Below, piece by piece: positions 4,203 through 7,967 of a DNA stretch of 64,000 bases. The position numbers and the translations under genes were made by a program. The first letter of the stretch is position 1, and each line of letters opens with the position of its first letter. This stretch comes from Parabacteroides distasonis ATCC 8503 (GTDB taxonomy: Bacteria; Bacteroidota; Bacteroidia; Bacteroidales; Tannerellaceae), in contig NC_009615.1 in the NCBI RefSeq assembly GCF_000012845.1, forward strand, positions 1,883,501 to 1,947,500. Direction: 5' to 3'. The notes beneath the pieces are model-generated. The model had not been told where the DNA came from, searched no databases, and worked only from the letters and a program-made list of their open reading frames with translations.

Positions 4203-4277
4203 CTTAATAACTAATTAAAGTTTAAACATCAGGGAGCACATAGAGGTAACGCCCCCTTTATTTCCTAGTTCTACCTT

Positions 4278-4354
4278 ATTTTCCCTTCGCCGGCATTACC
4301 CGGATCAGGTTCGATGGGTATAATCTCAGCCCGTATGACTCGGGCACCCCTATG
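4278..4354 (-). promoter_or_regulatory. TPP (THI-box) riboswitch
   Basis: On the minus strand the leader has the canonical aptamer elements in order: GGGGTGCC, CTGAGAT, ATACCC, GAACCTGATC, GGGTAATGCCGGCG, AGGGAA. Thiamine pyrophosphate binding would repress the downstream thiazole synthase. A CCCCC run before the aptamer and a GGGGG run between aptamer and gene (about 4251-4258) could pair and form part of the switch, which is a guess. Confidence 0.95.
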
Positions 4355-4368
4355 TGAAAAGTCGGGGG

Positions 4369-4376
4369 CAAATGTA
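4369..4376 (-). promoter_or_regulatory. -7 element upstream of the TPP riboswitch
   Basis: The minus strand reads TACATTTG (TAnnTTTG) 15 bases before the aptamer, placing the transcript start just before the riboswitch. Confidence 0.55.
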
Positions 4377-4451
4377 CAAAAAATTAGTATATATGTACTC
4401 AACAGAGCCATAAAAGGCAAAAAACGCTCAGCCAAACAAAATGTAAGAAGC

Positions 4452-4976
4452 TTAATCTTCTTCCGACCAGTCATCAGACCAACCGAATTCTTTATCCCGG
4501 AATAATTCAGCTAATCCCGAAATCTGCTTGAACCGAAGTAACTCATTTTTATCCATTCCAATATTACGCATGATCCACTTATCAGACATCCCAGATTTGA
4601 CCAACTCCGTAACAATCTCCGTCATAAGTTCCAAGTTGTGCATCCCTCGAGCCCTGTTATGGCGAATGGTTGAAGCCATTCGGTTTGAAATATCTTTCTC
4701 AATCACCGTTACAGGCAACATTCCTTTCTCACGATCATAAATCCTTTGAGATTGCTTCATAACCAGATAACGATGATAACCATCTACTATCTCATATAAA
4801 TCATCCTCTTCAAGATAATAACAGACGCAAGGCATCGTATAGCCATCCTCCCAAATGGAAAGTTCCAATAATCGCATTTCCGGTGGTGCCATGATATTAG
4901 GGTTATAGCTGTTGGCTACAATTTTTTCTATAGGGACAGCCCTAACACCATATGCCGGACTAACAAAGTTTCCCAT
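4452..4976 (-). CDS. IbrB-like ParB/sulfiredoxin-fold protein
   Basis: 174 aa. The N-terminal ParB-like domain has the paired motifs VPIEKIVANSYNPN (residues 14-27) and IVDGYHRYLVMK (63-74); the GYHR box replaces the ParB GEHR nucleotide-binding box. The C-terminal part (about 105-160) is helical (MTEIVTELVKSGMSDKWIMRNIGM), resembling an HTH that follows such domains, and the tail is acidic. Its start overlaps the end of the PP-loop gene by 17 bases, so the two are translated together. In E. coli, IbrA and IbrB are a pair of this architecture needed for expression of prophage eib genes; their chemistry is not settled. ParB-fold relatives include CTPases and kinases, so nucleotide binding is expected here but not shown. 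Confidence 0.8.
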   Translation of the reverse strand: MGNFVSPAYGVRAVPIEKIVANSYNPNIMAPPEMRLLELSIWEDGYTMPCVCYYLEEDDLYEIVDGYHRYLVMKQSQRIYDREKGMLPVTVIEKDISNRMASTIRHNRARGMHNLELMTEIVTELVKSGMSDKWIMRNIGMDKNELLRFKQISGLAELFRDKEFGWSDDWSEED

Positions 4977-6261
4977 GCTTATAAAAATTATATTTGTCCA
5001 TTACTTCTTTTCTCATATCCCTTTCTCGTTTTGTCTGGGAAAAACCCATATACTTACATGTATGATCGTTTTTCAAAATACAAACACACATACGTTTGTA
5101 AGTAGGGATTTCTTTAAACTCAGGTATATTGATATCATCGATATACTCCATCCGTACCGGTTTCTTATCCGTATGGTAAGCGGTACATTCTTCCACAATG
5201 ATAGGAATATTAGCCGCCCGTAACTTAGCGATAGTCTCCTCACTGAGGCATCCTCCTTTTTCTCTCCAGAATTTACGGCTGACTCTTAACTTATTCAAAT
5301 AGTTCTCACGAGTTTCTTCGGGTAAAGTATTTAGGAGAAAATACATATATTTCTCCCAAGAGAACCCGGCTGGGCACTTGATAGCCCTCCATCCCATAGC
5401 GGAGGTATTCCCATATATACCGGCAAAGCCAACACCGTTTACACGTCCAACCATCCTCCCCCACATGTCGGGATCGACAACTTTGTAAATGAACAGTGTG
5501 GATATCGCTTGGGATATGAATGGGCTCGCCACACGTTGCCGGGACAAAGGCACCCCTGCTTGATAATACAAATCATACAAATGATTATATGTCCAACCGA
5601 ACTTTCCGTTCGCTATCCAGATATCCTGAGTTTTCCAATCATAAATAGGATATGCGTTATATATAGAATAATTCATTCTGCGAGTCCATTTATAATTAGC
5701 TAGTTTTCTGTAATTCTTATCACTATGTATGGCCCGCCACCTATTAAAACTCTCTTGGGTACGGATACCAACAAGGCAACATATACGCCGGCCCATTTTC
5801 CGTTGATACAACCAAAAAGGGAACATATTCTGAAAATCATAATCCCACATGTCCTCCTTGAAAAAGTCAAAGTCTTTCGCCCGGAGACATGAATGGGGCA
5901 TCTCTCGAACCCAGATATCCCGGTACTCCTCGCTCCAAGGTCTCCAATATTGTTGAAACATAGATGTACATGTCTGGACTTTAAAAGGAACACAACAATG
6001 ATAAATATCAAGGATATCGGAATTAGCGGCATAAACCTTTTCCACATATTCGATCGTCTGGCTGTATTGAACCTCATAATCCATATGAAATACACCTAAT
6101 TTTCGTCCCGGAGCGTATCTACGAATATAATCTACACACAAATTCAACAGTACACCACTATCCTTTCCGCCGGAAAAAGAGACGTATACGTAATCGAAAT
6201 AATCAAAAATGATCTTCAATCTTTTCTCTGTCGCCTCGTACACATCCATTCTTCGCATCAT
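4960..6261 (-). CDS. IbrA-like PP-loop ATP pyrophosphatase (PAPS-reductase fold, DUF3440 type)
   Basis: 433 aa. The PP-loop SFSGGKDSGV is at residues 28-37, followed by the adenylation-domain core (FHMDYEVQYSQTIEYVE) and the LVGIRTQES motif typical of PAPS reductase-like proteins. The long C-terminal half is Trp/Tyr-rich (YPIYDWKTQDIWIA) and carries Cys residues (MCVCILKNDHTC), as in the IbrA/DUF3440 group. It is not a plain PAPS reductase: there is no cysteine biosynthesis neighbour and the partner is an IbrB-like protein. ATP-dependent activation of a substrate, possibly sulfur transfer or nucleic-acid modification, is an inference. Its start overlaps the stop of the upstream GNAT-like gene by four bases (ATGA). 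Confidence 0.85.
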   Translation of the reverse strand: MMRRMDVYEATEKRLKIIFDYFDYVYVSFSGGKDSGVLLNLCVDYIRRYAPGRKLGVFHMDYEVQYSQTIEYVEKVYAANSDILDIYHCCVPFKVQTCTSMFQQYWRPWSEEYRDIWVREMPHSCLRAKDFDFFKEDMWDYDFQNMFPFWLYQRKMGRRICCLVGIRTQESFNRWRAIHSDKNYRKLANYKWTRRMNYSIYNAYPIYDWKTQDIWIANGKFGWTYNHLYDLYYQAGVPLSRQRVASPFISQAISTLFIYKVVDPDMWGRMVGRVNGVGFAGIYGNTSAMGWRAIKCPAGFSWEKYMYFLLNTLPEETRENYLNKLRVSRKFWREKGGCLSEETIAKLRAANIPIIVEECTAYHTDKKPVRMEYIDDINIPEFKEIPTYKRMCVCILKNDHTCKYMGFSQTKRERDMRKEVMDKYNFYKHGKLC

Positions 6262-6671
6262 GACTCTACCTCCGGTAAATAATGCATTTTATCATAATTT
6301 TTCCACTCAACACATGTCTGGAACTTTTTTTGTGAGAACACTTTTACATGACGTTTATGCACAACAGCCATAAGTGAAGCTTGAGATGAAAAATCCTTTA
6401 TGACTTCTTCAAGAAGTTCACTCAATACCGAAGGATCATCACCACTCACGAAATAATTGTCTATAGAGTAATAGAGATGTCCTTTTTTTACAGGCATAAA
6501 ACCAACAACAGCTGTTTCATGAAAGGCTATATACCAAACGTGGCTACGAGATGTTTTAAAAGGGTAATTGTTATTTTGTCGCAAAATGGCTGGATTCATG
6601 ACCAAAGGTGCGACAAGTTCATATAACAATTTGTCCGTTCCCTGCAATGTCATAATTTTCATGGTCTGCAC
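6258..6671 (-). CDS. GNAT-like acetyltransferase, first gene of the ibrAB-like operon
   Basis: 137 aa. A central strand-rich part (VWYIAFHETAVVGFMPVKKG) and a C-terminal segment (VHKRHVKVFSQKKFQTCVEWKNYDKMHY) match the layout of GNAT N-acyltransferases, with the acyl-CoA loop poorly conserved. It could be a catalytically weak or specialised GNAT. It begins a three-gene unit, overlapping the next gene by ATGA, and a -7 element lies 18 bases upstream. A start at the fourth codon (MKIMTLQG) is also possible. The fixed pairing with the PP-loop and ParB-type genes suggests a common substrate, which is not known. Confidence 0.7.
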   Translation of the reverse strand: MQTMKIMTLQGTDKLLYELVAPLVMNPAILRQNNNYPFKTSRSHVWYIAFHETAVVGFMPVKKGHLYYSIDNYFVSGDDPSVLSELLEEVIKDFSSQASLMAVVHKRHVKVFSQKKFQTCVEWKNYDKMHYLPEVES

Positions 6672-6688
6672 TTAATAATATTACCATG

Positions 6689-6696
6689 CAAATTTA
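6689..6696 (-). promoter_or_regulatory. -7 element for the GNAT-ibrA-ibrB operon
   Basis: The minus strand reads TAAATTTG (TAnnTTTG), 18 bases upstream of the ATG at 6671. No clear -33 box was seen. Confidence 0.5.
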
Positions 6697-6747
6697 GGCA
6701 TTATATATAGATACCGTAGCCACAAAAACACAAAAATGTAATTTACT

Positions 6748-7909
6748 CTATTTATATTTAGTCACTCGCTCATAATCGATAACGCCTTTCCAATTCATAC
6801 AAAAAGCGAAATCATACAGATGGCCCTCGCTATCCGTATAGCATTTCATATCCCGGGGAACATCTTCGAATTGCTCCTCCACGATACGCATATCTGCCGG
6901 CATCTGCAAAGGCAACAAAGCGGAAGGCTCGGCTTTTCCACTGATGATATCCAAGACCGCTTGGTTTTGTACACCGAAGTTCACCAGAATGGCATCCGCC
7001 GAACCCTCGAACTCGGACATAATCGTAGGCTTATCCATCTCCAAAGATACGATTACAGGCTTACCTTTCATTTTAGCCTTTGTCTCCAAAACAGAAAGCA
7101 TATCCTGCTTATTAGCTGTTTTCACGGACTTACCTTTATAAGAACGGTTCGTGAAATTCTCAAACGGATCTCCCCCCGCCAAACTTGGGTTACGGGCATA
7201 GGTAGCGGTATAATCATTATACTGTAAACTGATAGGCATATAACCGTTTCCACCTTTCTCACAATCGGATTTATCATACCCCGTACCACTGTTCGGGCTC
7301 GTCATAAAGACGATGGCGAAATCCGCCTCATCGGGATTATCAACGACCGTAAGATACCATGACCGATACCCTCTACTAAAGCTTGCGCATTATTATTCCA
7401 GCGAGCCGCCACTTTCGGGCTTTGCACTCTCGTAACCAATACATGACGAACATTATCCTCGGTGAGGAATTTACGCTGCGCATCGGAAAGATCGGATGGC
7501 TGGGCTCCACTCTCATCAAAAGATTTGCCATTGTAGGTAGAAGTTCCAAACCCTTTCGAGGCACCGGGGATAGATTGATGGGCGCTATAAAGCATCAATC
7601 CGGCGATTTCCTCTGTAGATACTGTCCGGCCAAATCAACGGCACGTTCCTCGGGCGTAAGACGCCAATCCTCATACGGATCAAGCCGCCCGTTCCGATTC
7701 AGATCTTTGAAGGCATATCCGTCAACAGTAAGAAGTCTCACCCCCGAATTGGCGGAATATCCTAATACAGCTCCTTCTTGCTGGGTAACGATACGGATAG
7801 AATCTTTCTCCACCTCCGTCCACTTCGTGCCCGAACAAGCACAGGTGGAAACTAACAAGGCGCCCAACATACCATGGGTCAGCCGAACAGTAATAAAAGG
7901 TTTTCGCAT
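6748..7909 (-). pseudogene. GH3 beta-glucosidase remnant with frameshifts and a large internal deletion
   Basis: Three pieces of one GH3 lipoprotein remain in different frames. 7595-7909 has a signal (LVSTCAC) and a dockerin-like stretch (DLNRNGRLDPYEDWRLTPEERA). 7302-7598 has the next segment (MLYSAHQSIPG, KFLTEDNVRHVLVTRV). 6748-7305 has the C-terminal domain (SPNSGTGYDKSD, then VIVSLEMDKPTIMSEFEGSADAILVNFGVQ). A missing base near 7608 shifts frame after DLAGQ; the intended STEEIAGLM continues in another frame. Near 7350 the sequence jumps from EGIGHGI to NPDEADFAIVF. Full GH3 enzymes of this type are about 750 aa, so the catalytic barrel is deleted and the locus cannot make active enzyme. 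Confidence 0.88.
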
Positions 7910-7967
7910 ACTTTCTTAGTTTTAATAGGTTAATCTCTATTCAATAATGGTTTCTCAAGAATACGAT

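Follow-up and report, generated by a model that had tools for sequence, protein, structure and literature searches.

The IbrA and IbrB proteins are, as we take it, encoded by an island of E. coli ECOR-9, and YbdN and YbdM are presumably their counterparts in E. coli K-12. In the passages available from one source, activation of prophage genes is reported for E. coli IbrAB (PMC7649339). Two other systems, DndC/DndB and SspD/SspE, function in DNA modification, namely phosphorothioation, according to the parts of the source at hand (PMC10853773). Excerpts from a further source describe ParB-fold proteins as able to bind ATP, GTP or CTP; examples are a DndB-like one, for ATP and GTP, and a ParB-acetyltransferase fusion, for GTP (PMC12704722). 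The titles and passages found in the open-licence literature report neither an activity nor a complex nor a modified base for IbrAB pairs, and they describe neither a trio composed of a GNAT-like protein, IbrA and IbrB, nor the exchangeable gene treated below. IbrA-like sequences occur on phages and plasmids, and their chemistry is not given in those titles and passages.

Such a trio is found in Parabacteroides distasonis ATCC 8503, whose genome is a single contig of 4,811,379 bases. The window, i.e. the whole stretch of 64,000 nucleotides that was analysed, contains three overlapping ORFs on the minus strand at positions 4452-6671, in the order gnat-ibrA-ibrB, and their place and strand agree with the first-pass annotation of this DNA:

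4452 to 4976, minus strand: IbrB-like gene, 174 aa; ParB/sulfiredoxin fold; Box II DGYHR
4960 to 6261, minus strand: gene for the IbrA-like protein, 433 aa; PP-loop/PAPS-reductase-like domain and DUF3440
6258 to 6662, minus strand: gene for the GNAT-fold protein, 134 aa counted from the ATG at 6662; lacks the canonical acetyl-CoA loop motif
6689 to 6696, minus strand: Bacteroidetes -7 promoter element TAAATTTG, starting 34 bp before the ATG of gnat

Both overlaps described earlier are present, ATGA at 6258-6261 between gnat and ibrA, and 17 bases at 4960-4976 between ibrA and ibrB. The first ORF was likewise correctly placed, but its start had been put at the GTG at 6671, which would add three residues. 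The ATG at 6662 is more likely, since the best-matching homologue cluster (898 member sequences) has 134 aa and the annotated P. distasonis record gives the gene as 405 bp. A -7 element for the shared promoter proposed for the three genes is present, and of 44 gnat loci 27 have the pattern TAnnTTTG in the 110 bp upstream, compared to 3.6 expected from mononucleotide shuffles. The AT-richness ascribed to the trio is real, but modest in extent; its GC content is 39.7%, against 45.0% for the window, and 5.7% of equal-sized stretches are equally low.

The three genes are closely linked. In 295 Bacteroidales genomes, an even sample of a larger group, DUF3440 is found in 25 and the GNAT-like family in 22, all of which are within the 25. 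The two matches are on one contig in 21 of these 22 genomes, about 1.1 kb apart from start to start, while in G312 they lie on two separate contigs. The GNAT-like matches of G312 and G292 (two of the 22) each contain one in-frame TGA. Of the three gnat-negative genomes with DUF3440, two (G051 and G131) have a helicase directly upstream, and the third (G086) has only a partial DUF3440 match. At the gnat loci in named genomes ibrA is adjacent in 21 of 21 and ibrB in 20 of 21. All 43 loci with the complete set of genes share one order and strand; the window is counted among them, along with another P. distasonis record and a faecal phage record without annotation, and the loci are thus not fully independent. 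These counts show an operon with nearly strict linkage and support the earlier claim that the genes form a unit; the rare co-occurrence that the first-pass annotation had allowed for is not what is seen in Bacteroidales, and a chance meeting of the three genes was set aside. The pairwise distances of the three proteins also correlate (r of 0.75, 0.58 and 0.83, values that none of 2000 permutations reached for any pair); calculated without a species-tree control, this correlation shows common travel of the sequences and not contact between the proteins. IbrB was undetected at three IbrA loci, L026, L075 and L076, two of which are prophages; L026 is the one from the 21 gnat loci in named genomes. 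Metagenomic IbrA-IbrB fusions (P0133, P0218 and P0228) were left out of the argument because sequencing frameshifts could create them.

IbrA scores above the cut-off for both DUF3440 (307.7 bits) and PAPS_reduct, PF01507 (45.1 bits). Residues 1-263 resemble FAD synthase, CysD, APS/PAPS reductases, TilS and sulfur transferases, and many PP-loop relatives of this kind form AMP-linked intermediates. The PP-loop, earlier described as intact, is so throughout the family, with SGGKDS in all 32 aligned rows. The DUF3440 half of the predicted model is poor (mean pLDDT 69.4), which is too low for reading; the C-terminal tail, PTYKRMCVCILKNDHTCKYMGF, starts at residue 386. With its PF01507 match, PP-loop fold and SGGKDS, the protein could be taken for a true PAPS reductase of sulfate assimilation. 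However, ECGxH, the catalytic motif of PAPS reductases, is found in none of the 32 rows, and sulfur genes are absent among the 25 flanking Pfam families listed (of 151). Sulfate assimilation was set aside, and we consider it very improbable.

IbrB matches PF02195 with 20.2 bits, under the cut-off of 26.3, and phrog_2159 strongly with 240.5 bits. It carries the Box II GxxR that marks the ParB/Srx superfamily, and the ParB-type GYHR box noted earlier is indeed intact, DGxHR being found in 16 of 16 aligned rows. Among solved structures it matches by sequence a nucleoid occlusion protein (E 0.0011); for IbrA and the GNAT-like protein the same search gave chance-level matches only. No helix-turn-helix family is found among the Pfam and NCBIfam matches of this 174-residue protein.

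These features bear on a mainly regulatory role, which is the main rival of the DNA-directed activity that we favour, although we find it somewhat unlikely. IbrB would then be an NTP-gated DNA-binding or anti-silencing factor, tuned by IbrA and the GNAT-like protein, similar to the action of IbrAB on the prophage eib genes of E. coli. A paper citing work from 2002 states, in its available text, that Eib expression is higher when ibrB is present (PMC7649339), and the ParB-like VirB is described as an antisilencer in the passages at hand (PMC10770331). Further, deletion of ybdO (citR) in E. coli raised ybdN and ybdM along with cys and flagellar genes, with log2 values of 5.5 for ybdN, 2.5 for ybdM and 2.0-2.8 for several cys genes in the part of the source available (PMC9068703). 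However, ybdO itself encodes a regulator, so that these changes cannot be attributed to ybdNM, and the data, being confounded by the regulator, are suggestive. The small size of IbrB without a helix-turn-helix family also speaks against such a role, as does the invariably intact PP-loop of IbrA, which suggests catalysis.

No Pfam, NCBIfam or PADLOC family matches the product of the first gene at E 1. Its predicted model is confident (pLDDT 89.3) and the protein clearly has a GNAT fold as modelled. The loop from strand 4 to helix 3, DNYFVSGDD, seems by eye to be about four residues shorter than the usual form. The acetyl-CoA (pyrophosphate) loop motif was scored as the exact string R/QxxGxG/A, which is found in none of the 29 rows of the family alignment A1 and in three of 120 homologues, each time far C-terminal. 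Among 47 diverse members it is never at the loop position; L032 alone has the string, located before strand 4, and L101 has a near-match, RERGNQ, at the loop. As a control we used 18 ORFs of the same genome that lie at its 20 matches to PF00583. The string is found anywhere in 13 of the 18, an unaligned count, and in the 13 that were short enough to align it is at the loop in seven, only elsewhere in two and absent in four. Strongly kept within the GNAT-like family are NNNYPFKT, an early Trp, (D/N)NYY and a C-terminal YxKM, and an invariant Phe112 in A1 appears, as placed by eye, to sit at the position of the general-acid tyrosine in the helix after strand 5.

The first-pass annotation had proposed that IbrA activates a small molecule or a nucleic acid and that the GNAT then acylates it, which would here have to proceed via a diverged cofactor loop. 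This route, which we find decidedly unlikely, agrees with the GNAT fold of the model, with the six of 13 aligned controls that also lack the exact motif at the loop, with the near-match in L101 and with the existence of a GTP-binding ParB-acetyltransferase fusion, as given in excerpts of its source (PMC12704722). Against it, none of the 29 A1 rows contains the exact motif and none of the 47 diverse members has it at the loop, while seven of 13 controls do, and the claim of acyl transfer is not sustained. With an imperfect control the missing motif casts doubt on acyl transfer without disproving it, and its apparent loss is consistent across the family and no proof of inactivity. Judging from the alignments and the model, we suggest with moderate confidence that the protein is a GNAT fold turned to binding, and the family may be a case where this fold is used for something other than acetylation.

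The earlier interpretation overlooked two features of the cassette, a phage ancestry and an exchangeable partner upstream of ibrA. IbrA matches are found in 217 of 50,697 phage records (40 covering at least 80% of the protein) and IbrB matches in 218 of the 50,697 (206 covering at least 80% of the query). The two counts are equal for each of ten organism names listed, as totals and not as record-by-record pairs. In plasmids IbrA matches occur in 597 of 72,556 records, 566 of them covering at least 80% of the protein. The GNAT-like gene is found in four phage records, one of them weakly (E 0.4), and MT839645 has all three genes. A gnat search of viral contigs with A1 gave no confirmed match; three divergent GNAT-like copies adjoin ibrA in such contigs. 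Of the 80 viral contigs that rank best of 224 by IbrA, 78 contain ibrB, 54 an SNF2-like helicase, 15 a small protein and three a GNAT-like protein. The two helicases tested match PF00176.

The small upstream protein matches the end of DUF3440 in three examples tested, and a model built from it finds the window's IbrA at E 2.6e-8. Its PSYxxxCxxILKND stretch resembles IbrA from residue 386 onwards, so the small protein appears to repeat the tail motif and is possibly a docking mimic. These tail-like proteins (L079, L081, L086-L089, L093-L095, L099, L106, L111, L113, L117 and L121) have 79-128 aa and lie upstream of ibrA in 14 of 15 cases and downstream in L099. The small protein of L088 has 217 aa and is fused to a GNAT-like domain.

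At 130 ibrA loci the upstream gene encodes a helicase in 57, a GNAT in 44, a tail-like or c4 protein in 20, GNAT and helicase in three, GNAT and tail in one, and none of these in five; the loci were picked by GNAT or IbrA similarity and the class shares are thus not natural frequencies. A helicase and a tail-like protein are found together at none of the 130. As judged from gene content, these loci show that the gene upstream of ibrA is exchangeable, which hints at what the third protein may replace.

In a FastTree analysis of the 130 IbrAs, the GNAT-only label needs two changes, against a mean of 36.5 when shuffled, while the any-GNAT label needs five, and there was thus not one simple gain. 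L041 carries a helicase end along with GNAT and ibrA and comes out as sister of the GNAT group with a value of 93; the program flags L047 and L054 as long branches. With IQ-TREE and 102 rows the GNAT-only label needs three changes, and 41 of 42 GNAT-only rows form one group together with L075 at 98, L026 being placed elsewhere and L041 standing beside the group at just 69. Both trees were rooted at the midpoint. The GNAT-type IbrA thus appears to be nearly one group inside the helicase-type IbrA, i.e. within the phage type. Because of this nesting, the helicase type would have come first, with the GNAT added later and the helicase then lost.

In the chromosomes the cassette has no fixed place. 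The flanks are mostly unshared among 21 gnat loci, and the sole clear shared site is that of L013 and L015 in Paraprevotella, which have the same place and about a dozen neighbour families in common. In a search of relatives, the GNAT-like gene is found in two of 35 Parabacteroides genomes, at different places. A conserved core locus, which the first-pass annotation had kept in view, is not what most of these places indicate, and this candidate was set aside. In the named P. distasonis record the gene order around the trio is the same as in the window. Two records of isolate TSDC17.2-1.1, NZ_OY725755.1 and NZ_OY725969.1, are labelled plasmid 10 and plasmid 67 and have chromosome-like neighbourhoods; the former matches the chromosome here in gene order, which makes its plasmid label doubtful.

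In P. distasonis the trio is part of what seems to be an insert beside thi4:

4265 to 4361, minus strand: thi4 TPP riboswitch, close to the insert's left border
about 4386 to 7965, no strand assigned: insert, missing from close relatives, between the thi4 riboswitch and the cytidylate-kinase-like gene
6748 to 7909, minus strand: probable glycoside hydrolase family 3 remnant, inside the insert and outside the cassette

The site was compared in 11 of the 20 strong thi4 matches in the genus outside the window's own genome. A cytidylate-kinase-like gene lies beside thi4 in nine of these 11 relatives, and the trio is absent from the site in all nine. The gap between the two genes is 175-236 bp in eight of the nine and 3.77 kb in the window, which indicates that the trio and the probable glycoside hydrolase remnant were inserted. 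In the ninth, G025 (locus L185), a gap of 1.36 kb holds what by eye is an EamA-type transporter, and the site may thus be prone to insertion. The TACATTTG element at 4362-4385, just upstream of the thi4 riboswitch, is kept as judged by eye, so the insert seems to begin just past the thi4 promoter. PF01915 matches 6748-7305 of the remnant, while the ORFs at 7302-7598 and 7595-7909 have no Pfam match and were assigned to it by eye; its GC content, 47.2%, is above that of the trio. Neither a target-site duplication nor a transposon end was seen when the borders were checked by eye, and no transfer mechanism was found for the insert.

The phage kinship, the patchy distribution and the varied places could also point to a chromosomal anti-phage or superinfection-exclusion device acquired from phages, and among the PADLOC models IbrA is distantly similar to BrxP (E 1.7e-7) and DndC (E 4.5e-6). 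However, PADLOC gave no match for gnat or ibrB, and none at E 1e-5 for the ten neighbours of the cassette in the window. Around the 21 gnat loci, 108 of the 115 listed flanking proteins were scanned; no Pfam family has more than three proteins, and 12 PADLOC families are represented by one protein each at E 1e-15. A defence island was set aside, and we hold an anti-phage device to be unlikely.

The reading that we prefer, with a probability of roughly 0.38, is that the cassette is a domesticated phage IbrAB module that uses ATP to act on DNA or on targets bound to DNA, with IbrB as its switch and the third protein giving it direction. Most likely, IbrA would use its PP-loop and ATP to activate a target, either through adenylation or through a related transfer, IbrB would gate IbrA as an NTP-binding switch, and the GNAT-fold protein would be a dedicated non-acetylating partner of IbrA, apparently filling the operon position that in phages mostly belongs to an SNF2 DNA helicase or to a small protein similar to the IbrA tail. 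The target would probably be DNA or a DNA-bound complex, as suggested by the SNF2-like motor that the phage operons encode. Arguments against this reading are the poor DUF3440 model, the five changes of the any-GNAT label, the value of 69 for L041, the loci without ibrB, the imperfect motif control and the near-match in L101. We infer that IbrA is a catalyst, that IbrB acts as a switch, that GNAT and IbrA are in contact, and that DNA is the target; this best guess combines adenylating PP-loop relatives, NTP binding by ParB folds, the analogy to DndC/DndB and SspD/SspE, and the SNF2 motor. The cassette itself probably descends from a phage gene set. In a wider reading, which we hold only tentatively, IbrAB would be a minimal phage enzyme that modifies or marks nucleic acids by means of exchangeable targeting subunits, i.e. 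an SNF2 motor, a small mimic of the IbrA tail or a CoA-less GNAT-fold adaptor, and the version with the GNAT would have been adopted by gut Bacteroidales as a chromosomal cassette that stands on its own. The near-constant third protein makes the trio a small testable complex.

Compared to known systems, the locus has the arrangement that defines an IbrAB pair, a DUF3440 PP-loop protein adjoining a ParB-like protein on the same strand. E. coli IbrA/IbrB likewise consist of a PP-loop/DUF3440 gene followed by a ParB-like gene on the same strand, and IbrA of the E. coli/Klebsiella type is about 32-33% identical to that of the window. Unlike the trio, the pair has no annotated GNAT neighbour in the E. 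coli and Klebsiella records examined. Among the structures listed for the model of the GNAT-like protein is 4cry, which we take to be a PanZ-type GNAT-fold regulator. PanZ uses the GNAT fold for regulation rather than acetylation, yet keeps acetyl-CoA binding, whereas the family described here is without the loop motif. As in the trio, a PP-loop enzyme is combined with a ParB-superfamily protein in DndC with DndB and SspD with SspE, according to the passages available (PMC10853773). IbrA is, however, just weakly similar to DndC, and Dnd or Ssp components are found neither in the ten window neighbours nor in the PADLOC families of the scanned flanking proteins. In phage blocks consisting of an SNF2 helicase, IbrA and IbrB, IbrA is up to 64% identical to that of the window and is mostly followed by IbrB, and these blocks have the helicase upstream where the trio has the GNAT-like protein.
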